The notes under the pieces are model-generated. The model worked only from the letters and a program-made list of their open reading frames with translations, searched no databases and had not been told where the DNA came from. A program made the translations under genes and the position numbers. This document shows, in pieces, positions 3,126 through 59,968 of a stretch of DNA of 64,000 bases (positions are counted from its first letter, which is position 1; each line of letters begins with the position of its first letter). The stretch comes from Bedellia somnulentella. Lineage: Eukaryota > Arthropoda > Insecta > Lepidoptera > Bedelliidae. The stretch covers positions 3,918,501 to 3,982,500 of the forward strand of contig OY755197.1 in assembly GCA_963576735.1 (NCBI GenBank), given 5' to 3'.

Positions 3126-3395
3126 GAATGTACACGTATGTGTAACTCATTTATTCAGTTGTCATTGGCACAAACGATATATAACACGAAAACAACGATA
3201 GATTCAAATAAAATAAATATATCTTAGTATCGCCACAGCTATTGTGTTATTTTTTTATATCTTAGATTACTTCTATCACTGCTTACCCGTTATGGAATAA
3301 GCGTGATGATTAGGCCTTCTTTCTTATTACTATAATAGGATTTATCGAAAAAATTATTTAAAAATGGTTTAGGTTTAAAAGCCTATTCATTACAT

Positions 3396-3421
3396 GGGTG
3401 TTTCTCCAGAAACTTGTCCAC
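3396..3421 (+). repeat. left terminal inverted repeat, transposon copy 1
   Basis: 26 bp beginning GGGTGTTTCTCC. It pairs with 7301-7326 at 23 of 26 positions and is flanked outside by ACAT. Confidence 0.88.
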
Positions 3422-3577
3422 TCGCTGTCTCAGAGCAATATTTTCATAATAGGTATAGATTATGTAATAAGTTGTAGTAAATCTAAAAGATAATGCCCTG
3501 ATTTATCTCTGCTGGCAGTAAATCATTATTAAAACAATTTTTAATGTATATTTAAAAATTTTAAAGCACTCAAAAAC

Positions 3578-3587
3578 CAGTCCCCTG
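3578..3587 (+). repeat. CAGTCCCCTG motif, left end
   Basis: An exact 10-mer 182 bp in from the left end. A degenerate partner, CATTCCCCTG, lies at 3776-3785. In copy 2 the same pair lies 183 and 381 bp in. Possible transposase or host-factor binding site (inference). Confidence 0.7.
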
Positions 3588-3834
3588 GGGTGTCTCCAAA
3601 ACAGAAAAGTCACTTAAATGAAAAGTAGTTATGACAATATCTGTAAAAAACAAATAACTTATTAAATTATTCAAACAACATTAAGCAATCGTTCAGGAGA
3701 GATGCTTACTTTTTTACAAACATTATTTGGAATCATTAAAAAATAACATTAAAATGTGTCTCCGTATTTCGTGAACATTCCCCTGTGCATATTTTAAATT
3801 ACGCGCCTCTTTTTCCAAAAGGTTAAAATATGTT

Positions 3835-3974
3835 CTACTTGAGCGTAACGAAACGCAACCGATCTGAAGTTTGCTCAGATGCCGCCATTAGCTTTCGGGC
3901 GACATTTTATTTAGTGCCGTACACGCGTCCATCTGCGAAGCACGCGCCATAACCTCAAATCCAACAGTCCTCTG
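3835..3974 (+). promoter_or_regulatory. likely promoter and non-coding first exon of transposase
   Basis: The block GAAACGCAA..GATCTGAAGTT and a TTTAGTGCC site are conserved in copy 2 (about 24708-24790). Both copies then reach a splice donor: TCCTCTG|GTAAGG here, with the last exon base at 3974, and TCCACTG|GTAAGT in copy 2. The exact transcription start is not determined. Confidence 0.55.
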
Positions 3975-4216
3975 GTAAGGATATTTTATCACTTATTTTT
4001 ATTCGATTTAATGATACCTTATGTAGTTAATATTGTTTTAAAATATAGATGATTTCCAAGTAAAGTGAAATAACGTGACTGAATTACTTTTTACACTACC
4101 TCTGAATAAAACATAAAAAAACAGTCCCCTGGCGACAGTCCCCTGCCCTACCACACGACAGGGGACTGTTTATTCTTCCAAGGGACTGTTATGTATTATG
4201 TTTTTCTTTGTTGTAG
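3975..4216 (+). other. 5' UTR intron of transposase gene
   Basis: The donor GTAAGG at 3975 and the acceptor TTTGTTGTAG ending at 4216 bound a 242-bp intron. Copy 2 has a matching 238-bp intron (24840-25077). It contains four copies of the CAGTCCCCTG motif, two direct (4122, 4136) and two inverted (4159, 4179). Confidence 0.65.
4122..4188. repeat. palindromic CAGTCCCCTG cluster
   Basis: CAGTCCCCTG at 4122-4131 and 4136-4145 is followed by the complement CAGGGGACTG at 4159-4168 and the one-mismatch form CAAGGGACTG at 4179-4188. Starts relative to the left end are 726, 740, 763 and 783 bp, the same four numbers as in copy 2. The group could fold as a hairpin in RNA or bind a dimeric protein in DNA. 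Confidence 0.8.
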
Positions 4217-4245
4217 GTATTTTTCGTGTGTTTTGGGTGTACGGT

Positions 4246-6807
4246 ATGGCGCCGAGGAAGATAAAGCTTTCTAGGGAAGAGATTTTGCAAAGAAAAAGAG
4301 AAGCTGAGCGAAAAAGATATGAGTGTATGAAAAACGATCCGCAAAAACGGGAAGCACTTAAAGAGAAGGAACGTCTTAAATACCTTAAGAAAAAAGAAAA
4401 GGGAACTAGGAAGCTTGTTGACAATATGACACCTCGTGAACACCGCGAAGCAAAAAAGAAGTGGAGAGAGCATTGCAGCAACTACCGTAATAAGAAAAAA
4501 CAATTGAAAAACATTGCTACAGCATTCATGAGGGAAAATACTCCAGAGACTGATGTACCAGATTCATTGCGAATGCCAACACCTGGACGCGATGTTGCTG
4601 ACAAGATTCAAAAAAGAAAGAACAGAAACAAAGCACTGAGATACCGCATAAATAAGAAAAAAGATGATGAAATTAATAAACTAAAGAAAAAACTATTTAA
4701 ATATAAGAAACGTTTAACAAGATTGACGGAGAGAACAAAACCAAAACCTAAAGATACTCCTAACACTAAGTTACAGAAAATGACAGATAATCCAGAAACC
4801 AGAAGAGAAGTGGTAAAAAAGGCGCTTTTTGGTGAAGTATTAAAAGAGCAATTACGAGAAAATTTGTCTAATTTGAATACTGTAAGAGAAAAGAGAATGC
4901 TAGCAAAAGTAGTTTCAGGATCGATGGTTGATAAATGTAAACTATGGCGAATGGATAACAATGCTGTGATAACCCTCAGACGAATAAAAAAGTCAAAAGT
5001 TACTGGAAGACTGGCAGGAAAATCGAAAGTATCCGATGAAGTTGTAAAAGCAGTTGCAAATTTCTTCGAAGATGATTCTAACAGTAGACTAGGAGCAGGA
5101 AAGAAAGAGTTTATCACTAGAAAGGGGACCCGGAAACAAAAGAGATACATGCTTGATTCGTTAGTCGGCCTATACAGCAAATATCAGAAACAGAAGAGCC
5201 AATTCAAACTAAGTTATCAAACCTTTTGCAGACTCAGACCATTTTGGATTGTGAAGCCCAAAGTAGATCAGCGTGATACTTGTTTGTGCATTACACATGC
5301 AAATATAGACCTAAAATTAACAGCTCTACATAATGGCAAAATACTGAATTATAATAGCTATCAAAAACTGCTCCAGGAACTGTGTTGTGACCGATACAAT
5401 GAGCAGTGTATTTCCAGAGAATGTCAGAAATGTCTTAACAAGACTCCTTCTTACAAGGAATTCAACGAGAAGAAGTCAATCATTTATAAAAAATGGATAG
5501 CTGAAAAAGCAGAATTCATTGACCCGAAATTCAAAAACACTCGCCGAGTAACCAAACACATTAAGAAGTCTCTTGATGTAAATCCTCGCTACCTGATCAC
5601 AGAATTACATGAAGATCTAGAGACATTATTTCGCCACGAAAGAAATATTTTACACCAGTTCAATTCAATAAAGCAACTTAAAAACTCACTGACAGAAGAA
5701 GATGTACTAATTCATGTAGATTTCTCAGAAAATTATGTAACAAAATACGCCCAAGAAGTTCAGGCTTTCCATTTCGGCGGGTCACGTACACAGATTAGTC
5801 TACACACGGTTGTAGTATACCTGAAAGATAAAATAAAAAGTTACTGCACAATCTCTACAAATGTATCTCACTCTCCCGCTGCGATTTGGGCTCATCTGAT
5901 GCCAATTTTTGATGATTTGCCACCCGAAATCAAAACCCTACATTTTTTGAGTGATGGTCCTGTAACCCAATACACGAATAAAACGATGTTTTACATTATG
6001 GCTAATAAAATCCCCGAGCGATTTCCACATGTGCAAAAGTTCACCTGGAATTATACGGAGAGCGGTCACGGCAAAGGCGCACCGGATGGTGTAGGAGCTG
6101 CCTGCAAGAGGACTGCAGATGCCGTGGTTGCTGCTGGAGGTGATGTCGAAAATCTAGAGAAGTTTGTGGATGCCATTAAACCGAGATGTCCGGCCATTAA
6201 TTTAAGTATTATACAAGTTGACACGATTCAAGAAATGAGTGCTAAAATCGAACAGGAAGGATCCAAGATAAAGAATTTTGTCGGCACCCTCAAAGTGCAT
6301 CAAGTCACTGGAAAATTCTATAATTCTTCGGGTATAAAACTAAATTCCATTGAAATTGTGATGAGACATCTCAGCTGCTTTTGTGAAAATGATTCTTGTC
6401 TACATTTCAAGATAGGAAAAATATTGTATGAAGATATGCAAAAACTACGTGTGGAAGATGTGTTCACTGACTCAGAAACAGAGAATGACGCTGGACCTAG
6501 TTGTATTACTACAGGAAATGCTTTCAACACTGGTGATTACATCCTTGTCAAATTACCTGCCAAACATATGGAATATAGATATGTGAGCGTTATTGACATC
6601 ATTGATGAAGAAGAGGATGAACTGCGTGTCACCTTTCTAAAACTGTGTGATAAAAAAGGTCAAACATTTAGGATTTATCAAATGGATGTGGCGGATGTCG
6701 CAATGAACCAAGTCATAGAAAAACTGCCTAATCCTAATTTGCTTATGAAAGGTAACCGAATTTTTTACAAATTTGATTCATGTGTAAATGTCTTTGAACA
6801 AAAATAA
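4246..6807 (+). CDS. putative transposase, unassigned DDE family (853 aa)
   Basis: This is the only long ORF of the transposon at 3396-7326. An upstream in-frame ATG at 4198 would give 869 aa, but it lies before the splice acceptor at 4216, and copy 2 starts at the MAP(R)K site, so I choose 4246. Numbering below is for the 869-aa frame. Residues 17-200 are very basic, with a repeated ERKRYE..KNDPQKRE-like pattern (likely DNA binding). A Cys/His-rich part follows: CxCxxHxN at 362-369 and Cys at 396, 397, 404, 409 and 412. A candidate RNase H-like core has D508 (HVDFSENY), D586 (FLSDGP..QY.NK) and E621 just before GHGKGAPDG; D586 and E621 are separated by 34 residues. Residues 779-869 form a beta-rich GDYILV...RYVSV domain that may be chromo- or Tudor-like. 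The transposase role is inferred from its place between inverted ends and from these motifs. No stop or frameshift is present. Confidence 0.8.
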   Translation: MAPRKIKLSREEILQRKREAERKRYECMKNDPQKREALKEKERLKYLKKKEKGTRKLVDNMTPREHREAKKKWREHCSNYRNKKKQLKNIATAFMRENTPETDVPDSLRMPTPGRDVADKIQKRKNRNKALRYRINKKKDDEINKLKKKLFKYKKRLTRLTERTKPKPKDTPNTKLQKMTDNPETRREVVKKALFGEVLKEQLRENLSNLNTVREKRMLAKVVSGSMVDKCKLWRMDNNAVITLRRIKKSKVTGRLAGKSKVSDEVVKAVANFFEDDSNSRLGAGKKEFITRKGTRKQKRYMLDSLVGLYSKYQKQKSQFKLSYQTFCRLRPFWIVKPKVDQRDTCLCITHANIDLKLTALHNGKILNYNSYQKLLQELCCDRYNEQCISRECQKCLNKTPSYKEFNEKKSIIYKKWIAEKAEFIDPKFKNTRRVTKHIKKSLDVNPRYLITELHEDLETLFRHERNILHQFNSIKQLKNSLTEEDVLIHVDFSENYVTKYAQEVQAFHFGGSRTQISLHTVVVYLKDKIKSYCTISTNVSHSPAAIWAHLMPIFDDLPPEIKTLHFLSDGPVTQYTNKTMFYIMANKIPERFPHVQKFTWNYTESGHGKGAPDGVGAACKRTADAVVAAGGDVENLEKFVDAIKPRCPAINLSIIQVDTIQEMSAKIEQEGSKIKNFVGTLKVHQVTGKFYNSSGIKLNSIEIVMRHLSCFCENDSCLHFKIGKILYEDMQKLRVEDVFTDSETENDAGPSCITTGNAFNTGDYILVKLPAKHMEYRYVSVIDIIDEEEDELRVTFLKLCDKKGQTFRIYQMDVADVAMNQVIEKLPNPNLLMKGNRIFYKFDSCVNVFEQK

Positions 6808-7064
6808 CAGTTGAATCTAATATAAAAAAATCTAAATATGTTCATTACAGATGATTGATATGATAAGACTGATTAGTATTCAGAGAAAGACTTTTATGTT
6901 TTAGTCACTTAATAATTTTAATTTTGTGATATTAAGTGATACTCAAGTTGATTTGTTGTAAGAGTAAAACTATTAATAAGACTGTTAAAAACAAAGACTA
7001 TAGTTAATATTGTTGATTTAATGTTTAATAGCCTAATACCTAAGGTTTGTTTTAATATTCTAAT

Positions 7065-7070
7065 AATAAA
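7065..7070 (+). terminator. likely polyadenylation signal of transposase
   Basis: AATAAA about 260 bp after the stop codon and upstream of the right-end motif pair. Confidence 0.45.
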
Positions 7071-7114
7071 AAGACTTACATTTTGTATTAAAATGGTATT
7101 TTTATTTCAAAAGT

Positions 7115-7144
7115 CAATCCCCTGTTATAGGCAACAGTCCCCTG
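7115..7144 (+). repeat. CAGTCCCCTG motif pair, right end
   Basis: CAATCCCCTG (7115-7124, one mismatch) and CAGTCCCCTG (7135-7144) end 202 and 182 bp from the right end. The same two distances are found in copy 2. Confidence 0.75.
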
Positions 7145-7300
7145 TGTCATTTTTTCAGAAAAAGCTCAATAAATCCTAAAATAAAGGAAATACGTTCGGT
7201 TAAATTACTTCTTTTTATTGACCAGGTAGATGCCTATTACGATACTAGGGTTATTTTAAGATATAAGCAAGCAACTGTATGAGACAGATTTTGCATGAAA

Positions 7301-7326
7301 GTGGACCTGTTTCTTGAGAAACACCC
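7301..7326 (-). repeat. right terminal inverted repeat, transposon copy 1
   Basis: 26 bp ending GAGAAACACCC, complementary to 3396-3421 at 23 of 26 positions. The target duplication ACAT follows at 7327-7330. Confidence 0.88.
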
Positions 7327-7494
7327 ACATACATAAAAACTAGGCTCTAACTCAGTGTCTGTTATTGTTTATGAGATGTCATGTACAATACACTATAATA
7401 TTTATAATCATGATATTTTATAAATAGAGATACATAAGGTCAAAGAGGATGGTAATGCCAATAGAGGACAACTCTAGTAAGAAAGAACAACTTA

Positions 7495-23995: not shown

Positions 23996-24254
23996 CATAC
24001 ATACAAACATATACTCACGGCTATAAATCCCTAGAAGGGGTAGCCAGAGCTAACGAATTAGAAAATCCTTAGCCACTTTTGGAAGTTGCGTGGGGAAAAT
24101 CTGGTAAAATAAAGGTTGTTGGTGATGGGTCTCCAACCGCATCGCCCAAAAATCCCTTAAAAAGCCCCAATACCGTTAGTCGCCTCTTACGTACACCCAC
24201 CGGAAGAAAAGGGGTAGTGCTATTCTAAGCCGACACTACACAGCATATGTATAT
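23996..24254 (-). mobile_element. SINE-A copy interrupted at its end by transposon copy 2
   Basis: Full length in complement, ending ACACTACACAGCATATG. Its target duplication GTAGTATTTA lies at 23986-23995 on the left and at 28503-28512 on the far side of the DNA transposon, so the transposon arrived later, right at the SINE boundary. Confidence 0.88.
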
Positions 24255-24258
24255 ATGT

Positions 24259-24284
24259 GGGTGATTCTCCGTAAACTGGGCAAC
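24259..24284 (+). repeat. left terminal inverted repeat, transposon copy 2
   Basis: 26 bp starting GGGTGATTCTCC, complementary to 28475-28500 at 24 of 26 positions. Confidence 0.88.
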
Positions 24285-24441
24285 TCATGGTCACCAAGCA
24301 ATAAAAAATAAAGTAGTTAATTAATTAAATATTTGAGAATGAAAAGTGTTTAATGAAAACGTCATCTAGTTGTCACAATAAAAACAAAATAGTACAATTA
24401 CCTATTTCCATTTTAAAAAACCTGTTTTTAGGCCCGAAAAA

Positions 24442-24451
24442 CAGTCCCCTG
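24442..24451 (+). repeat. CAGTCCCCTG motif, left end of copy 2
   Basis: An exact 10-mer, with a second exact copy at 24640-24649. The 198-bp spacing equals that in copy 1 (3578 to 3776). Confidence 0.75.
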
Positions 24452-24839
24452 GGTGGTCACAAAATCAAATTCTATGTTATTAGGTAACTTATTTTCAATA
24501 TTACTTTGCTAAATCAATAGTGGTGTTCCATGTTATATTACTAAAAAGTCAATATTTATAAAAAATATTTCAGGAAATTAAATAAAAGATATTTTTTTAA
24601 TAATACCCTATTTCAAAGTTTGTCCCCAGGTTTTGTGAACAGTCCCCTGTCTAATATTTTAAACGTTATTAAAGTTTCATTCAAAGTTTGATTTTGGGAT
24701 TAAGCAGTAGAAACGAAACGCAAATGATCTGAAGTTAGCAACGATTCCGCCAAAAGCACACCCACACCATTATGTTTAGTGCCAGGCGAGTTCTCGTCAC
24801 CTAGACACGAGCTGGAACGCTACGCCCGTCAGTCCACTG

Positions 24840-25077
24840 GTAAGTAATATTTCCGGCAATTTTAAAATTTATGTAATAATATTTATATGTGTTGTGTATT
24901 TTTGCAGTTAATTGTGTTTTTTGGTTTTAATTTGAATGTAAACTCCATATTTTCTATGCAAGTTTGTATTTACATCCAAATAGACAGTCCCCTGGCAACA
25001 GTCCCCTGCTATTTATTAGATCAGGGGACTGTTTCTCGTTCCAGGGGACTGTTTTATATTCTTTACACTTATTTCAG
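24840..25077 (+). other. 5' UTR intron of transposase, copy 2
   Basis: Donor CACTG|GTAAGT at 24840 and acceptor TTATTTCAG ending 25077. It holds the palindromic motif cluster and matches the 242-bp intron of copy 1. Confidence 0.65.
24985..25051. repeat. palindromic CAGTCCCCTG cluster, copy 2
   Basis: Direct motifs at 24985 and 24999, inverted motifs CAGGGGACTG at 25022 and 25042, all four exact. Offsets from the left end are 726, 740, 763 and 783 bp, identical to copy 1. Confidence 0.85.
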
Positions 25078-25098
25078 GTTCGTCTATCGACTTGAAAT

Positions 25099-26773
25099 AT
25101 GGCACCAAGGAAGAAAAAACTTACAAGAGAAGAAACATTACAAAGAAAAAGAGATAATGAGCGTAAACGGTATGAATTTATGAAAAATGATCCACAGAAA
25201 AGGGAAGAACTGAGAGGAAGAACGCCTCAAGTACTTGAAAAAAAGGAAAAGGGTTCTAAAAGGGAAAAACTTGTCAAAGATATGACTCCGAGATAACATA
25301 GAGAAACAAAGAAGTGGAAAGAGCACTGCACGCAGTATCGAAAAAAGAATAAGGCGTTACGAGACATCACGCAAATGTTTGTGAAGGAAAACACTCCTGA
25401 TTCCATTGCATCTGAGACCCAGTCATCTGCTCCTGCTCCTCAAATAATGCCCAAGAAGAAAAATGATAAAGCGAGAAAAATGCGGTATATGATGATGAAA
25501 AATAAAAATGACCAAATTATGAGGTTGAAGAAAAAGCTATCGAAATATAAGAAACGCTTATCAAGACTAGAAAAGAAGAAGCAAGATGAAAATTCTCAGA
25601 ATGAAACTCCAAATACCAAACTGCAAAAGAAGCTTGATATACCAGAATCCAGAAAAGAATTAGTTAAGAAAGCTTTGTTCGGCGAAGTCTTGAAGGAGCA
25701 ATTGGAAGAAAACTTATCTCAATTTAAAACTGTGACCGAGAAACGTTTGATTACCAAAATAGTGTCAGGAAAGTTGGTGAATAAATATAAGCTATGGAGA
25801 ATTAAAGACGCTGGAGTTTTAAACTATAAAAGAATAATGAAAGCTAAACTATCTGTAACAAGAAAACGTTAACTTTCAAGAAAAGTGATTGCTGAGGTCA
25901 CAAATTTCTACCAAGATGACTCAAATAGCAGACTGGGAGCAGGGAAGAAGGAGTTCATAACGAGAAAAAGTTGCGGAAACAAAAAAGATATTTGCTCGAT
26001 TCGCTACTTGGTTTGTATAAAAAGTTCAAGCAGACTTCACGTGTCAAGATCTCTTATCAGACCTTCTGTAAACTACGCCCATTTTGGGTGGTTGTTCCTA
26101 AACTTGGAGAACGCGATACTTGCCTGTGGGTCACACATGCAAATGTGGACTTAAAATTGACAGCACTTCATTCTCGTAAAATTTTGAGTTATAACAGCCA
26201 CCCAAAGCTTCTTGAGGAGCTGTGTTGTAACCGATTTGATGAGCAGTGTTTGTCTAGAGAATACGAAAATTGTTTTAACAGGACTCCTCACCAAGTAACA
26301 GGTTTAATAAGTGATTTCGTATTAGTGATGAAGAGTTTAAGCTACTTCTGTGGTGAAGAAAGTTACGCCCATTTCAACATCGGAAAAATGGGTTATGAAT
26401 TATTGCCGAGACTGAACGTGGATGACGTTTATACAGATTCAGAACCAGAATTACACCCTGAAGCTGGACAAGCAACACAGATAAAACTGATTTTAAACAC
26501 GGTGATTATGTGCTGGTTAGAGTGCCTGGCAAGAATATGAAATATAGATATGTAAGTGTTATTCGTGATATAGATGATGAAGAAGGTGAAATTACTGTTA
26601 CTTTTCAGAAACTACATCATGAAAAAGGTCAAACATTTAAATTTAATGAAGAGGATGTAGCGGATGTAACATTGGATCAAGTGGTGGAGAAGTTGCCTAG
26701 CCCAAATATTTTATTAAAAGGCAATAGAGTATTTTATAAGTTTGATTTACCTGTCAATGTCTTTGAAAAATAA
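25099..26773 (+). pseudogene. transposase pseudogene, catalytic core deleted
   Basis: It aligns with the 853-aa protein of copy 1 from MAPRKKKL to the end ...NVFEK. The basic N terminus, CxCxxHxN-like part (here DTCLWVTHANVDL, with one Cys changed to Trp) and the C-terminal GDYVLV domain are present. Breaks: a stop at 25294-25296 (a Glu codon in copy 1), a stop at about 25870-25872, a 1-bp loss near 25965, and a frameshift near 26480-26510. After NRTP (about 26288) the sequence jumps in frame to HQVTG, removing the equivalent of residues 418-700 of copy 1 with all three candidate catalytic acids. It cannot encode an active enzyme. Confidence 0.85.
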
Positions 26774-27009
26774 TACCAATTTATGTTGTTGCGGTTTTGC
26801 CTTTAAAATTATAATTTAAAAAAATGCTTTTAAAAGTATATGAAGGCTGAAGTGAATTTTATATATTTTTTAAATGTTTATTAAGTATAAGTTGCTTGTG
26901 ATAATTAAAAAATAGGACTGAACAGAAGCACAAAGTTCCTTCTAAGAATTTAAGCTACTGATAATAATGTACCTACCTATAAGTTAATCCGAATAAAACG
27001 CAAATAATT

Positions 27010-28150
27010 ATAGTTGGTAGCTCACGAATTGTTTCCAGGATTGACTATAAATCATTACCGCCTGTTTTATTTGATGGCACATCCATTCCTTTCAGCGCTG
27101 CTGTAAAAAACCTTGGTGTGATGATAGATAGCACCTTATCTTGGGTACCGCAACTGGAATTAGTATGCCGGAGGCTGTTTGCGTCAGCAGGGTCCCTCAG
27201 GAGGCTACGTAACTTTCTCCCTACTGCTACCAAAACTGCGTTAGCCCAATCTCTTCTACTACCTATTCTTGATTATGCTGACACCTGCTATCTCGATCTA
27301 ACTGAAGATCAACTGAACAAACTTGAGCGCTTACAAAACTTATGTATTAGATTTATTTTCGGACTGCGTAAATATGACCATGTCTCTGCGTATCGCAATA
27401 AACTTCAGTGGCTTCCAATTCGTCTCCGCCGGAATGCACATACTCTGTCTCTCCTGTACTCTATCTTGTTTAATCCTGCCACCCCCTCCTACCTTAAAGA
27501 GCGTTTCCAATTCCTTCACTCTTCACATGACCTCAATCTGCGGTCTTACCACAATCTTTTGTTGAGTACCCCTTCCCATTCCACCAATTTTTACAGTTCC
27601 TCCTTTACCGTCCAGGCTGTACAACTATGGAACGGTCTTCCTGTAGAGGTGCGATTAGCCAAGTCTCTCCCTATTTTCAAGAAAATGGTAAAAAAACACT
27701 TCCTCTCCGAAACATGATAATATTATTTGTGTTGCATACAAAAGTTTATATATTCTATTATATATTATGTCGTAAAATGTATATATGTATTTTATTTAAA
27801 AATCTTTATATATATTGCATATGTATTGTATTTATTGAATATTATTTATTTTATGGAATACTATCTGTATCTGTAAGTGTATTAGAACTTAATAAATATT
27901 TAGTAATACTTAAAATAGATAGATAATAGTTTGATGAATAATTTTAGTTTTTAAGCAAATCAGTTTAATTTATTGGACATCTACCGAACATGTTTTTAAT
28001 CCAGCAAATCTTTCCATTAATGGGTTGTCTGGAAGAGATCGCTCTTAGTGATAAGACCGCCAGTTGTACTTTGGCTTTTATACCGATCTTTTTTGTAATT
28101 GTTGTTTTTATTTTGTAATGTGCAATAAAGAGTTTTATTATTATTATTAT
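27010..28150 (+). mobile_element. 5'-truncated CR1/Jockey-type LINE inside transposon copy 2
   Basis: An open frame covering 27118-27717 reads as the C-terminal part of a non-LTR reverse transcriptase (NLGVMIDSTLSW, LLLPILDYADTCY, NLCIRFIFGLRKYDH, TVQAVQLWNGLP). A 3' UTR with TTGTCTGGAAGAGATCGC and TTAGTGATAAGACCGCC ends in GCAATAAAGAGTTTTATTATTATTATTA. It interrupts the 3' UTR of the DNA transposon. The coding part has no stop until the natural end, so it may be fairly young. The exact left boundary is approximate. Confidence 0.82.
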
Positions 28151-28288
28151 AAGGTGAGATCTCATAGCTAATTTTAAGATTTCTTTAAGAGGTTGTCAAA
28201 ATATAAGATGTATAACATAAGTACTCAAGAAAAGATAAATAAATATGTAGATTTTGTGATTAAACAGTGCATATTATTTATAATAAGT

Positions 28289-28318
28289 CAGTCCCCTGTA
28301 GTAGGCAACAGTCCCCTG
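28289..28318 (+). repeat. CAGTCCCCTG motif pair, right end of copy 2
   Basis: Two exact 10-mers ending 202 and 182 bp from the right end, as in copy 1. Confidence 0.82.
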
Positions 28319-28474
28319 TGTCAGTTTTTTCGAAAAAGTTCAATATTTCCTAAAATAAGTAGAACTTCAAGCGTTCTGTTAATGCATAGTATTATATACA
28401 TAATAAACTATTATATTGAGTAGATAGGTCTTTAAAATTAAATAAAAATTGGCTGGGACACTTTTCGCCCAAAA

Positions 28475-28500
28475 GTTGCCCACTTTACGGAGAAACACCC
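28475..28500 (-). repeat. right terminal inverted repeat, transposon copy 2
   Basis: 26 bp ending GGAGAAACACCC, followed by the ATGT duplication. Confidence 0.88.
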
Positions 28501-28527
28501 ATGTAGTATTTAAAACTATTTATTTCC

Positions 28528-28757
28528 AACTGTGTAGTGTCGGCTTTGAACACTACCCCATCTTCCGGTGGGTGTAGGTAAGAGGCGACTAACGGTATTG
28601 GGGTATTTAAAGAAGTTGTTGGGCGATGCGGTTGGAGACTCATCACCAAGGTTTTTTTTGCCATCTTGCCCCCTCGCAACTTTCAAATGTGGCTGGGCAG
28701 TTTCTAGCTCTGAAGCTCTGGCTACCCAGTTTTGGGATTAATGGCCGTGATTAGTTC
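28528..28757 (+). mobile_element. SINE-A family copy, mixed A/B features
   Basis: Head CTGTGTAGTGTCGGCTTTG, then GGTGGGTGTAGGTAAGAGGC (A-like) and TTCAAATGTGGCTGGGCAGT (B-like). The tail GGCCGTGATTAG is diverged. Confidence 0.78.
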
Positions 28758-43630: not shown

Positions 43631-43712
43631 ATTCGAGGGAGAGTAGCTGCAATTATTGTTGCTACAATTTCTGCGCTGAAATAATTTGTGAAGAGACTTA
43701 TTAGTAATAAAA

Positions 43713-44240
43713 ATGTCCTTGCTGCCTCTTCTCATTGATTACGAGCTGGAACGTCCACGCCGTTTATTGGACCAACATTTCGGGTTGGCGTTGACTCCAG
43801 AAGATTTGCTTTCAATCTCTGGACCTATTGCTAGCCGAGAATACTACCGTCCTTGGCGCCATCTTGCCGCAGCAGCACGTGATGTTGGCTCAAGTATCAA
43901 AACCGACCGGGACAAGTTCCAAATAAACTTGGACGTCCAACACTTCGCGCCTGATGAATTGACTGTGAAGACTGCTGATGGGTACATCGTGGTTGAAGGA
44001 AAGCACGAGGAACGTAAGGATCAACATGGGTTCGTGTCTCGCCAGTTTTCTAGACGCTACGCATTGCCTGAAGGGTGTGACCCTCAGACCGTAGAGTCTC
44101 GTTTGTCTTCTGACGGCGTCCTGACGGTTGTGGCACCAAGAAGCGTCCCGCCGGAAGCAATGGGCCAGCGTCAAGTGCCCATAGCCCAAACTGGCCCGGT
44201 CCGAAAAGAAATGAAGGACCATGCCAACGGTGACAAGTAA
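43713..44240 (+). CDS. small heat shock protein, l(2)efl-like (175 aa)
   Basis: An ATP-independent chaperone of the alpha-crystallin/Hsp20 family that would hold unfolding proteins in large oligomers in the cytoplasm. The single-exon frame starts MSLLPLLIDYE, like the paralogue at 59338-59886. The N-terminal arm contains YYRPWRHLAAAARD. The alpha-crystallin domain spans about residues 67-143 (DKFQINLDVQHFAPDELTVK ... VVEGKHEE ... RRYALPEGC ... SSDGVLTVVAPR). The tail has the short VPI motif (155-157) and GPVRKEMKD. AATAAA lies 43 bp after the stop (44283-44288). A P-like transposon sits just upstream and a weak heat shock element remains between them. Length and motifs are normal and the gene looks intact. 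Confidence 0.93.
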   Translation: MSLLPLLIDYELERPRRLLDQHFGLALTPEDLLSISGPIASREYYRPWRHLAAAARDVGSSIKTDRDKFQINLDVQHFAPDELTVKTADGYIVVEGKHEERKDQHGFVSRQFSRRYALPEGCDPQTVESRLSSDGVLTVVAPRSVPPEAMGQRQVPIAQTGPVRKEMKDHANGDK

Positions 44241-44774: not shown

Positions 44775-46320
44775 ATGAAAATGGCATCAAACGAAATCAA
44801 ATATATTAGAATTAATGGTGGAACGGCTCTTTTGTGTGATAAATATCGATACCATCGCCACAAAACCTACAAAAATGGTTCTACTATATGGAGATGTACG
44901 AGTAGCTCATACTTGAGTAGCAAATGTTGTGGAACTATAACTGTTGAACGGGTAAGTTATTTCCAACTCTTTTTACCTAAATTATTTTTAACTGATTTTA
45001 CCTAGCCATCTATACAAATATTATAAATCTGAAAGTGTGTGTGGCTGTTTGCATGTTTGTCCGTCTTTCACGGCAAAACGGGGTGACGTATTGAAAAAAT
45101 GTGCATCATTTTTAACAAAAAGTCATCCTCTAACCTTGGTTTGTAATTTTAGGATAATACTATAACAGGAAGGAAAGATCATAATTGCACAGTAGATGAA
45201 CACAAGAATGAAATACGTGAAGCAAATATGTGATTTACGAGAAACTGTGATATCTTCTGACGAACCCATTCAAAGGTTATATGATATTAAAAACAGTGAC
45301 TTTACTGACAAGGGACTTAATATGGCGATGGGGTCTTTGCCACCGTACGAGAGTGTTAAGCATTTTTTACAAAATGCAAGAAATAAGTCTGCGCAAGTGT
45401 CAAAGACCGTGTTTAAAAATTTTGGTCACGTTGAAGTGCCAGTTCGTTACAAAGATTTCCTTATGGCCGATTACTATAACGAAGAAGGTGCGGAACAAAT
45501 CCGTATTTTAGTATTTTGCACCAAACAGGCCCGGGAGGAAATCCCAAGAATAACAGAGTATTTCCTGGATGGCACCTTTTCTAGTTGTCCTAAACCTTTT
45601 GCCCAAATATATAATATTCCTGGCGATAAAAGCAGTACCACAGGAACCACTGATGCCATGCCACTAATTTTTGCTTTAATGACGGACCCTAAAGAAAAGA
45701 GCTACTCAATTTTGTTTAACTTGATTTTGTCACAAATAAAGAATTGGAACCCATTAAAAATACACTGTGACTATGAAAAAGCGGCTTTGAATGCTATTTG
45801 TAAATTATTTCCAAATAGCATTATAAAGGGATGCTATTATCATTGGACACGCAATATATGGAAAAACGCCAAGTCGCCAAAGTTCAAAGTAACACAAACA
45901 AAACCAGAAAAGAGAATCGTGGGACTGACCGCTGCGTTACCGCTTCTGCCTGCTGATCAAATATTACAAGGACTCGAATATATTAAATCAGAAAGTCAGA
46001 GCTTGAAGCGGATGGACAAATTTATTAATTATATAGAAAGTTTTTGGTTTAAAGTACATACTCCCAAAGTATTCAGCGTTTACGGCGAAAGACATCGGAC
46101 GAATAACATTTTAGAGTCATTTCATTCAAAATTAAACAAGAATACAGTAACACTAATGAGATTGTTAAATGTACTACAAAATATTCATAAGAGAAAAGTC
46201 ACTCCGAAGAAACGTAGAGAAGCACAAATTATTAATGACGATTTTATTATGGAAGTCCAAATGGAACTAGTGCACAATGTTATAACAGTAGGACATGCAT
46301 TGGACAAATTAAGAACATAG
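44775..46320 (+). pseudogene. MULE transposase with FLYWCH-like zinc finger, one frameshift
   Basis: Exon 1 (44775-44951) encodes MKMASNEIKYIRINGGTALL, DKYRYHRHKTYKNGSTIWRC and KCCGTITVER, a FLYWCH-type zinc finger. A donor CGG|GTAAGT and an acceptor TTTTAG ending 45152 join it in phase 0 to DNTITGRKDHNCTVDEHKNE, the expected His/Cys end of the finger. That frame stops at about 45229-45231. The rest (45196-46320) is open one frame over, so a small indel near 45216-45235 breaks the gene. The second part is a MULE core: FLDGTF (D125 of the downstream frame), CDYEKA (D192), CYYHW (213-217), and NNILESFH, likely the third acidic residue at about 310. The protein would otherwise be about full length, so this is a young pseudogene. 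The intron holds part of a dispersed repeat (TTTCACGGCAAAACGG). Confidence 0.82.
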
Positions 46321-48373: not shown

Positions 48374-49419
48374 TATTATTATATTAGATGGGCGGTAAGC
48401 GCCACGGGTTTCCGCACTGAGCCCGGCATGGCAAGCCATTGTACGTGGACCAAGTGGTCATTTAATTCTCCCAACCTAATTCCGTCCAGAAGGCGAGTAG
48501 CTTATCCAGGTCAGCTGCCGCCTCTGGGAGCGACTTTATGGATCCTATCGTGTTATAGCGGATATCGGCTACCCCCGTGCATTCCTGGAGCACGTGAGCA
48601 ACCGTTTCGTCAGCTTCCATGCACGCTCGGCACTTGGGGCTGTCGGTAATGCCTATAGTGTATAAGTGTTTATTTAGTGTGGTATGTCCTGTGAGTACTC
48701 CAGTCACTGTCCGCAGATCTTTTCTGCTTAGTCGCAGGGCGCGCCCGGTCAGCTTCCTGTCAAGGGTTGGCATGATTTCCTTCGACTGTCTGCAACCGGG
48801 CTCCTCCTGCCAGTGTATCTTGGAGAGGGAGTGAGTGCGTTCTTTTAGCCATGCGCGAAGCTGACCATAGGGTAGGGGTATGATCGGTTCAGGACCATAT
48901 AGATCCCTTGCCGAACCCCCCCTAGCCAATTCGTCAGCAGCGTCGTTACCCAAGGAGCCGCTGTGGCCCCTTATCCATTGTAGGGTTATAGTGTTATTCC
49001 GAGCTGCTTCCTCAAGAGCTCTGTGGCACTCCAGGACTAACACTGAGGTGAATTCACAGCGATCCAGAGCCTGCAGCACAGATGCACTGTCCGAGATGAT
49101 TCTGATATGCATATCGGACACATCTCGGGCTTTGATTGCCATGGCCGCCTCGGTTATTCCAAGACACTCCGCTTGGAATACCGTGTTGTGTCGACCTAGG
49201 GTTTTGGAAGTTTTAATATTGAGGTCTTGTGAATATACCCCGGCTCCAGTCCCTTGTTTGGTCTTGGAGCCGTCTGTGTATACACGCACCTCTTTAATAT
49301 TGGAGTAGTCATGCTGTTCCTCTTCGAGTATAACAGTATAGTTGTGTTTGGTAATTATAGTTTTAGTTATCCTATCACAGGGCGCAGCAAGTAAGGGCTG
49401 ATATTGGATCGCCATTGTT
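48374..49419 (-). mobile_element. 5'-truncated LINE with RNase H, target duplication present
   Basis: TCAAAATAACTAT (13 bp) lies at 48361-48373 and 49420-49432. The minus-strand 3' end is a short TAATATAATAATA tail. The insert is only about 1 kb and contains a single open frame that begins next to the 5' break, so it is a recent, 5'-truncated non-LTR element of a clade that carries RNase H (I, R1 or LOA type). Confidence 0.88.
48462..49415 (-). CDS. RNase H domain and C terminus of a non-LTR retrotransposon (partial)
   Basis: The 317-residue open frame starts within 5 bp of the 5' break, so the ATG is fortuitous. RNase H removes the RNA strand of RNA-DNA hybrids during retrotransposition. 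The motifs are clear: VRVYTDGSK (first Asp), FQAECLGI (Glu), RIISDSASVLQAL (second Asp), WIRGHSGSLGNDAADELA (last Asp). The C-terminal part holds a CRACMEADETVAHVLQEC zinc-knuckle-like segment, typical of these elements. No stop or shift is seen. The reverse transcriptase is missing through truncation. Confidence 0.85.
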   Translation of the reverse strand: MAIQYQPLLAAPCDRITKTIITKHNYTVILEEEQHDYSNIKEVRVYTDGSKTKQGTGAGVYSQDLNIKTSKTLGRHNTVFQAECLGITEAAMAIKARDVSDMHIRIISDSASVLQALDRCEFTSVLVLECHRALEEAARNNTITLQWIRGHSGSLGNDAADELARGGSARDLYGPEPIIPLPYGQLRAWLKERTHSLSKIHWQEEPGCRQSKEIMPTLDRKLTGRALRLSRKDLRTVTGVLTGHTTLNKHLYTIGITDSPKCRACMEADETVAHVLQECTGVADIRYNTIGSIKSLPEAAADLDKLLAFWTELGWEN

Positions 49420-49432
49420 TCAAAATAACTAT

Positions 49433-49601
49433 CAGGGGGTGATTAGTGATCGATACTGATGCCAAAAATGCATTCAGTAAAATTTTTGTCTGTCTGTCGG
49501 TTTGTATGTTCCTTATGGAAACAAAAACTACTCGACAGATTTTTACGAAACTTGGCACATTTATTTTTTATACTCCTGGGCAGGTTATAGTATACTTTTC
49601 A
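49433..49601. other. no gene seen
   Basis: Contains TTTTTGTCTGTCTGTCGG..ATGTTCCTTATGG..CGACAGATTTTTACG, wording typical of dispersed lepidopteran repeats. Confidence 0.4.
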
Positions 49602-59337: not shown

Positions 59338-59886
59338 CTACTTCTTCTCTTCCACTGATTTAGGTGACGAATCATCCTTGATCTCCTTCCTCACTGGACC
59401 AGTATGCTGAATGGGCACTGCTCGTTCACCTTTCACAGACTGAGGAGTCACTCTTGGAGCCGTCACTGTCAGAACACCATCAGAAGACAAACGGGATTCC
59501 ACCATTTCAGTTTTACATCCTTCAGGCAAAGCGTACCTTCTTACAAACTGTCTCGAAATATAACCGTGTTCGTCCTTCTTCTCTTCATGTTTCCCTTCGA
59601 CAATGATAAATCCATCAGCCGTTTTCACCGATATTTCGTCGGGAGCGAAGTGTTGGACGTCCAGGTTAACTTGGAACTTGTCTTTGTCGGCTTTAATACT
59701 GGATCCGAGGTCTCTTGCAGCGGTAGCTAGTTGTCTCCAGGGCCGGTAGTAATCCTGGGAAATCGTTGGCCCAGCAATTGCAGATAGAATATGGTCAGGC
59801 GTTAAAGCTAGACCGAAATCTTGATCGTATAGACGACGAGGTCTGACAGCAGGCCAATCGTTGAAGAAGTATGGTAGTAGAGACAT
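59338..59886 (-). CDS. small heat shock protein, l(2)efl-like (182 aa)
   Basis: Single-exon Hsp20/alpha-crystallin chaperone, a close paralogue of the gene at 43713. The start MSLLPYFFNDWP matches the family. The arm holds DFGLALTPDHIL and YYRPWRQLATAARDL. The alpha-crystallin domain is at about 70-145 (DKFQVNLDVQHFAPDEISVK ... IIVEGKHEE ... VRRYALPEGC ... SSDGVLTVTAPR). The tail has VPI (157-159), HTGPVRKEIKDD and a charged end. Upstream on the minus strand are a three-unit heat shock element (60036-60048), TATAAATA (59991-59998) and an initiator TCAGTT (A at 59972), all well spaced, so this member should be strongly heat-inducible. Confidence 0.95.
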   Translation of the reverse strand: MSLLPYFFNDWPAVRPRRLYDQDFGLALTPDHILSAIAGPTISQDYYRPWRQLATAARDLGSSIKADKDKFQVNLDVQHFAPDEISVKTADGFIIVEGKHEEKKDEHGYISRQFVRRYALPEGCKTEMVESRLSSDGVLTVTAPRVTPQSVKGERAVPIQHTGPVRKEIKDDSSPKSVEEKK

Positions 59887-59968
59887 TTTAATTGTGATTA
59901 GTCACTCTTGAAAACTTTTGTTGCTTTAGAGAGTTTTAGTCGCTTCGAGTTTGCTTTGTATTACTGAT

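Follow-up and report, generated by a model that had tools for sequence, protein, structure and literature searches.

A complete-looking, most likely Sola2-like DNA transposon of the moth Bedellia somnulentella carries a nine-site motif array of conserved geometry

The element, its gene and its neighbours

We examined a 64-kb window, meaning the whole stretch of moth DNA analysed here, and all coordinates refer to it. A transposon of 3,931 bp, which begins GGGTGTTTCTCC, lies at 3396-7326 with the following features.

3392..3395: left target duplication, ACAT (4 bp)
3396..3421, plus strand: left terminal inverted repeat (TIR), GGGTG... (26 bp)
3975..4216, plus strand: predicted 5'UTR intron, GT...AG (splice signals), containing array sites 4-7
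4246..6807, plus strand: transposase open frame, 853 aa
5719..5721, plus strand: codon of D492, putative first catalytic Asp, strand 1 of the RNase H fold (alignment, model)
5953..5955, plus strand: codon of D570, putative second catalytic Asp, after strand 4 (alignment, model)
6085..6087, plus strand: codon of D614, proposed third catalytic Asp, GHGKGxxDG motif (alignment, model)
6508..6792, plus strand: predicted C-terminal beta domain, Tudor/BAH-like, residues about 755-849 (structure model)
7301..7326, minus strand: right TIR (26 bp)
7327..7330: right target duplication, ACAT (4 bp)

The first-pass annotation had described 26-bp inverted ends starting from GGGTG and pairing at 23/26 positions, with ACAT duplicated outside, and the same values were obtained on remeasurement. 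When two 26-mers, set the element's own distance apart, were placed randomly within the window, 3 of 100,000 pairs reached 23 matches and none exceeded 23; 1.7 draws were expected to hit the element itself. The open frame, uninterrupted as had been claimed, runs for 853 codons from the ATG at 4246 or 869 from the ATG at 4198 to the stop at 6805-6807, with no internal stops. The shorter form is preferred because the ATG at 4198 falls within the predicted 5'UTR intron, and the conserved Met column of the relatives, which corresponds to residue 1 of the 853-residue form, agrees. The intron itself had been proposed earlier, and its signals (GTAAGG...TTGTAG), read by eye, are matched in the second copy of the window.

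As modelled, the protein is an RNase H-fold DDD transposase, with D492, D570 and D614 as its putative catalytic residues. Across 98 aligned rows D570 and D614 were invariant and D492 was at least 90% conserved, and each of the 7 locus proteins that were checked carries all three. E605, shortly before D614, is likewise conserved; we take D614 rather than E605 to be the third catalytic residue. The core of the predicted structure reached a pLDDT of 92.2. The 50 structural matches listed for it were mostly retroviral integrases (Z up to 10.0, rmsd 3.0 over 141 residues) and also included IstA, Mos1 and TnsB; with Foldseek alone, the sole match at E<=0.001 was a weak one to NurA. A profile search returned no consistent Pfam family for the window protein or its relatives. 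A sequence search of the window protein against solved transposases gave no match.

The closest named proteins came from moths, namely Spodoptera frugiperda P0100 (98% over 35% of the query) and S. litura P0003 (71% identity over its length), and the closest database protein, P0001, differs from the window protein at 14 residues. As a transposon it is of an ordinary, probably already known kind and in good condition. The window element (family A) compared with copy 2 (family B) over 553 codon comparisons gave a pN of 0.237 against a saturated pS of 0.765, and therefore the protein was formerly under purifying selection. In the protein tree, Diabrotica P0031 and Callosobruchus P0017, both from beetles, nest on short branches within moth and butterfly clusters, which suggests transfer between orders or contamination.

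Other features of the window were also recorded. Two HSP20/alpha-crystallin genes lie about 15 kb apart on opposite strands, at 43692-44240 (plus strand; Pfam E 1.6e-27) and 59338-59901 (minus strand; E 7e-28). A 374-codon open stretch at 45196-46320 (plus strand) is a MULE transposase fragment or gene (PF10551, E 5.7e-10), and a LINE-type RNase H was found at 48462-49442 (minus strand; E 5.7e-14) with a zf-RVT match below the curated cut-off.

Copies, target duplications and superfamily

A second copy lies in the same window.

24255..24258: left duplication of copy 2, ATGT (4 bp)
24259..28500, plus strand: copy 2, a family B deletion derivative without the DDD core, with all nine array sites
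24442, 24640, 24830, 24985 and 24999, inverted at 25022 and 25042, then 28289 and 28309: array sites of copy 2
28501..28504: right duplication of copy 2, ATGT (4 bp)

This copy, reported by the first-pass annotation, is real, with ATGT on both sides and TIRs that match at 24/26, but it is not intact: stops are present, and residues about 402-684, including the DDD core, are missing. It is flanked by inverted-repeat arms (24119-24207 and 28561-28649, 90% complementary), a position suggestive of insertion into a palindromic repeat at its loop. Inside it, at 26983-27717 (plus strand), an open stretch resembles by eye the tail of a LINE reverse transcriptase, for which Pfam gave no match.

We searched the host assembly (549 Mb, 486 contigs) and found further copies that share the ends of the element. 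One, on C3, has 99% protein identity and no stops in its open frame, and its two flanking 4-mers differ. The boundaries first drawn were right, and the copies support the reading of the window element as a complete, potentially autonomous transposon of the cut-and-paste type that is real and intact-looking. At least 72 match rows, from 53 scored candidates where an initial pass had given 1,024, encode relatives in the host genome, many with long open frames, and several related families may still be intact. None of the 11 copies of family B that were examined retains D492 or D570, owing to a gap of residues about 402-684 in 10 copies and about 372-612 in L022. Another internal deletion, of residues about 362-680, is common to four host copies of the window element's own family. 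Same-family copies are 96-99% identical in DNA; they and a deletion derivative found in four places, always between perfect duplications, show movement in trans.

Two family A copies, L010 and L011, are interrupted by one common insert of 4.0-4.1 kb, which looks like an LTR retroelement because of its 4-bp border repeat GCTG and a reverse-transcriptase-like frame seen by eye. These copies occupy different sites, with perfect duplications AAAT and ATTT in spite of an altered right terminus TGGCG, and therefore the compound moved as a unit. DNA comparison further identified L041 and L047 as 5'-shortened copies of families D and F, respectively, and L050 as a family G copy, while L056 stood alone. 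Families F and G are still alignable at 69% DNA identity.

Perfect 4-bp duplications were found in 24 of the 28 elements for which both ends were located. Families A and B, whose ends were located without requiring a duplication, contributed 17 of 19. The other families contributed 7 of 9, with L042 and L058 as the exceptions and with the ends of L033 and L050 located by a search that required the duplication. Of the perfect duplications, 22/24 start with A and 21/24 finish with T (15 each among the 17 from A and B). The target is therefore 4 bp of the A..T type and not specific to ACAT, as first supposed, since other copies duplicate AAAT, ATTT, AATT, ATAT, ATAC and ATGT.

Several superfamilies were considered and rejected. 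TTAA, the sequence that Kolobok duplicates, occurs in 0 of 24 perfect duplications, which removes both piggyBac and Kolobok. CMC (Chapaev) elements have CAC-type ends; those found here start GGGTG, GGGCA, GGGTA or GGGTC, and two altered right ends read TGGCG. Ginger has an rve-type integrase domain detectable by Pfam, and Pfam gave no rve match with the window protein at E values of up to 10, or among the families listed for 50 relatives at up to E 0.05. The duplications of hAT, P and MULE elements measure 7 bp or more, and the duplication here is 4 bp in all 24 perfect cases.

The group most likely belongs to the Sola superfamily, with Sola2 as the best fit, to judge from its ends, its size, its DDD core and its AT-rich duplications of 4 bp, set against published descriptions of that superfamily. 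It had earlier been concluded that the ends and protein could not be placed; this no longer holds, given an RNase H-fold DDD core and Sola-like ends, duplication and size. In the excerpts of PMC10741241, Sola elements have DDD transposases, 4-bp duplications, TIRs of 11-1124 bp and lengths mostly of 2-9 kb. The window element has a 26-bp TIR at 3,931 bp and three Asp residues placed in the model as in RNase H-fold transposases. The Sola2-type elements of amoebae are described, in the part of PMC3627910 consulted, with AWWT duplications (ATAT, AAAT, ATTT); those found here are AT-rich, though not all are AWWT. Sola elements have been reported in moths (excerpts of PMC8634313, PMC4735498, PMC6983493), and moth Sola sequences were joined to baculovirus genomes in infected larvae (excerpts of PMC4735498, PMC6983493).

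The group might instead form an unnamed DDD superfamily with GGG ends and 4-bp A..T duplications, outside Sola, which we consider unlikely while giving it real weight. No relative named as a Sola transposase appeared among the protein search matches, and the protein has neither a consistent Pfam family nor a solved-structure match by sequence. Against this stand the fit of the DDD core, 4-bp duplications, TIRs and length to Sola (PMC10741241, in excerpt) and of AWWT duplications to Sola2 (PMC3627910, in excerpt), together with the known presence of Sola in moths according to excerpts of the three reports cited above.

Nine sites with conserved spacing and changing motif

The motif CAGTCCCCTG (at <=1 mismatch) occurs nine times in the window element, with seven sites on the left and two on the right. 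Outside the two copies, only one further match was found in the 64-kb window.

3578..3587, plus strand: site 1, CAGTCCCCTG (all nine rows by motif match)
3776..3785, plus strand: site 2, CATTCCCCTG
3965..3974, plus strand: site 3, CAGTCCTCTG, abutting the predicted splice donor GTAAGG
4122..4131, plus strand: site 4, CAGTCCCCTG
4136..4145, plus strand: site 5, CAGTCCCCTG
4159..4168, minus strand: site 6, inverted
4179..4188, minus strand: site 7, inverted
7115..7124, plus strand: site 8, CAATCCCCTG
7135..7144, plus strand: site 9, CAGTCCCCTG

The offsets are +183, 381, 570, 727 and 741, then 764 and 784 for the inverted sites, and -212 and -192 from the right end; site 9 is as far from the right end as site 1 is from the left. 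The complete set of nine was recovered (<=2 mismatches) in 17 of the 19 family A and B copies. L022 and L023 are one site short each, and the sites of L025 are shifted by an upstream insertion.

The array was detected in 9 of 10 related families examined (34-100% protein identity), weakly in H and I, and six motif variants were found among the array-bearing families. Family C (L032, 56% identity) has the motif and geometry of the window element. The same nine places are occupied by CAGGCCCTAG in family D (L034/L044, 47-50%), by CACTTCCCTG in family E (L039, 47%) and by CATTCCCTCA in families F (L042/L045, 35-36%) and G (L058, 34%). For nine elements of the seven families A-G, mismatches to the own motif totalled 1-8 over the nine sites, compared with a minimum of 22 and a median of 30 in 270 shifted-template controls, and the same seven families again gave 1-8 when no motif was seeded. 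Family H (L033, 49%) carries a degenerate array with 12 mismatches (left part 9/70 against control minima of 15-18). Family I (L051/L052/L053/L055, 41%), whose element start was confirmed by four different flanks, was moderately better than its controls (11/70 against 14-19). A motif scan of the left sites found no array in L041, L047 or L056; in L056 the best result was 14/70 mismatches with an AT-only-like word, against controls of 16-19. When the element start was predicted from site 1 alone in L039 and L042, both showed GGG and a matching right TIR, and the duplication matched in L039 and not in L042.

Start-to-start distances in families A-H are 182-184 bp from the end to site 1, followed by 197-199 and 189-191; they are 22-23 between sites 5 and 6, 18-20 between sites 6 and 7, exactly 20 between sites 8 and 9 in every element, and 190-193 from site 9 to the end. 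In families A-G, sites 3 and 4 are 154-157 bp apart and sites 4 and 5 are 14-15 bp apart. Most intervals are thus held within 1-3 bp between families. The spacers themselves measure 154-157, 187-189, 179-181, 144-147 and 155-158 bp in the seven families A-G, and the spacer from TIR to site 1 (154-157) equals that from site 9 to TIR (155-158).

This conserved nine-site geometry with a changing motif is the surprising part of the element, and no precedent for it was found in the literature searched, a search that lay outside the founding Sola papers. Individual copies do vary. Interval changes of >=3 bp occur in 1 of 8 A copies and 4 of 11 B copies, and the copies with altered spacing are L010, L022-L025 and L050, the last with 6 mismatches in its left sites and a first interval shortened by 9 bp. 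Shifts of roughly one helical turn were confined to the single copies L022, L023 and L050, with none between families; therefore, absolute length seems to count as well as phase.

Reading of the array and comparison with known systems

The motif is near-uniform inside any one element but not the same from family to family; descriptively, closer proteins go with closer motifs. Because one genome holds motifs that change with the element's protein, the most likely reader of the array is the element's own transposase and not a host factor. Its N-terminal basic helices are the candidate reader, since the core would do the catalysis and family I keeps the array, if weakly, with an open frame that lacks the C-terminal domain. 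The near-exact spacing suggests one defined complex.

From these patterns we infer the following course. The RNase H-fold DDD site (D492, D570, D614) would cut at the GGGTG ends, and the cut ends would be joined to AT-rich targets, giving duplications of 4 bp of the A..T type. A family-specific motif of ~10 bp would be recognised by the transposase, probably by the basic helices of its N-terminal region, in nine fixed places: at 183-192 bp from either end, a second time slightly further in on the right, and on the left in an array running through the 5'UTR intron. The constant distances would most likely be those of a single defined nucleoprotein complex bringing both ends together, and the left array would let the transposase restrain its own expression. 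Taken whole, an autonomous Sola2-like transposon whose array is read by its own transposase in one end-pairing complex is the probable reading. A bolder proposal, which we hold tentatively and at somewhat below even confidence, is that the array acts as a kilobase-scale molecular ruler, with nine transposase sites whose distances are held to ~1-3 bp down to about one third protein identity while the motif changes along with the transposase.

The array could alternatively serve only the expression of the transposase gene, through autorepression or splicing via site 3 and the inverted sites 4-7, outside any transposition complex. Seven of the nine sites do lie in the 5' leader and intron, sites 4/5 are inverted relative to 6/7 and could also pair in RNA, and families A, B, C, D and E have a GT donor adjoining site 3 (E: GTACGT). 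However, families F and G keep site 3 in place without a donor there, and sites 8 and 9 are located several hundred bp past the open frame, with site 9 mirroring the distance of site 1. We regard this explanation as unlikely. Less likely again is that nucleosomes or a host DNA-binding protein set the spacing, with sites in linkers and spacers (about 146-188 bp) each taking one nucleosome. The spacers, at 144-189 bp, are on the nucleosome scale, and the predicted Tudor/BAH-like domain resembles chromatin readers. Yet linkers do not require a precision of 1-2 bp in length, a host factor serving every family would be expected to preserve a single motif where one genome holds six variants, and family I does without the C-terminal domain in its open frame; nucleosomes may still contribute alongside the transposase. 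That the shared spacing is leftover ancestry of young families is very improbable: all families share an ancestor, nearer pairs retain residual spacer similarity (z up to 6.7) and F and G still align, but A and B are saturated at synonymous sites, 15 of 15 spacer comparisons of A with E, F and G fall within 2 SD of shuffled values, the stretch between stop codon and site 8 differs in length by over 200 bp (308-549 bp in seven families, longest frame >=765 codons), and 5 of 19 copies already show the interval changes of >=3 bp.

If reading by the transposase holds, the ruler would assemble one fixed transposase-DNA, or perhaps transposase-nucleosome, complex, and the families would form a natural series for the evolution of transposase DNA specificity. 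The usual picture of transposase sites is a loose group close to each end; here nine sites extend over ~800 bp on the left and 200 bp on the right, at near-exact distances despite different motifs. Transposon-end architecture thereby becomes directly testable, matched protein-motif pairs within one genome could help to work out how DNA recognition changes, and the open-frame element with its near-identical second copy is a candidate moth transposon tool.

Among known systems, the cores of retroviral integrase, IstA, Mos1 and TnsB share the RNase H fold with the predicted model, but no sequence similarity to them was found and a shared fold shows no close kinship. The element resembles Sola2 in its predicted DDD transposase, AT-rich 4-bp duplication, TIRs, length within 2-9 kb and occurrence in animals including moths; its fixed nine-site array goes unmentioned in the excerpted Sola descriptions. 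The ends of phage Mu and Tn7-type elements bear several transposase sites in a defined arrangement, as here, and an internal enhancer of Mu doubles as operator. These systems are prokaryotic, however, the moth geometry persists while the motif changes, and the proteins are compared by their shared fold. The P element and Galileo have transposase-binding motifs of ~10 bp located at some distance from the extreme ends, a likeness to the present array, and the P element also has internal inverted sites at a set distance from its ends. Their duplications are longer than the 4 bp found here, and the moth element differs from both in an array that is longer and common to families with different motifs.
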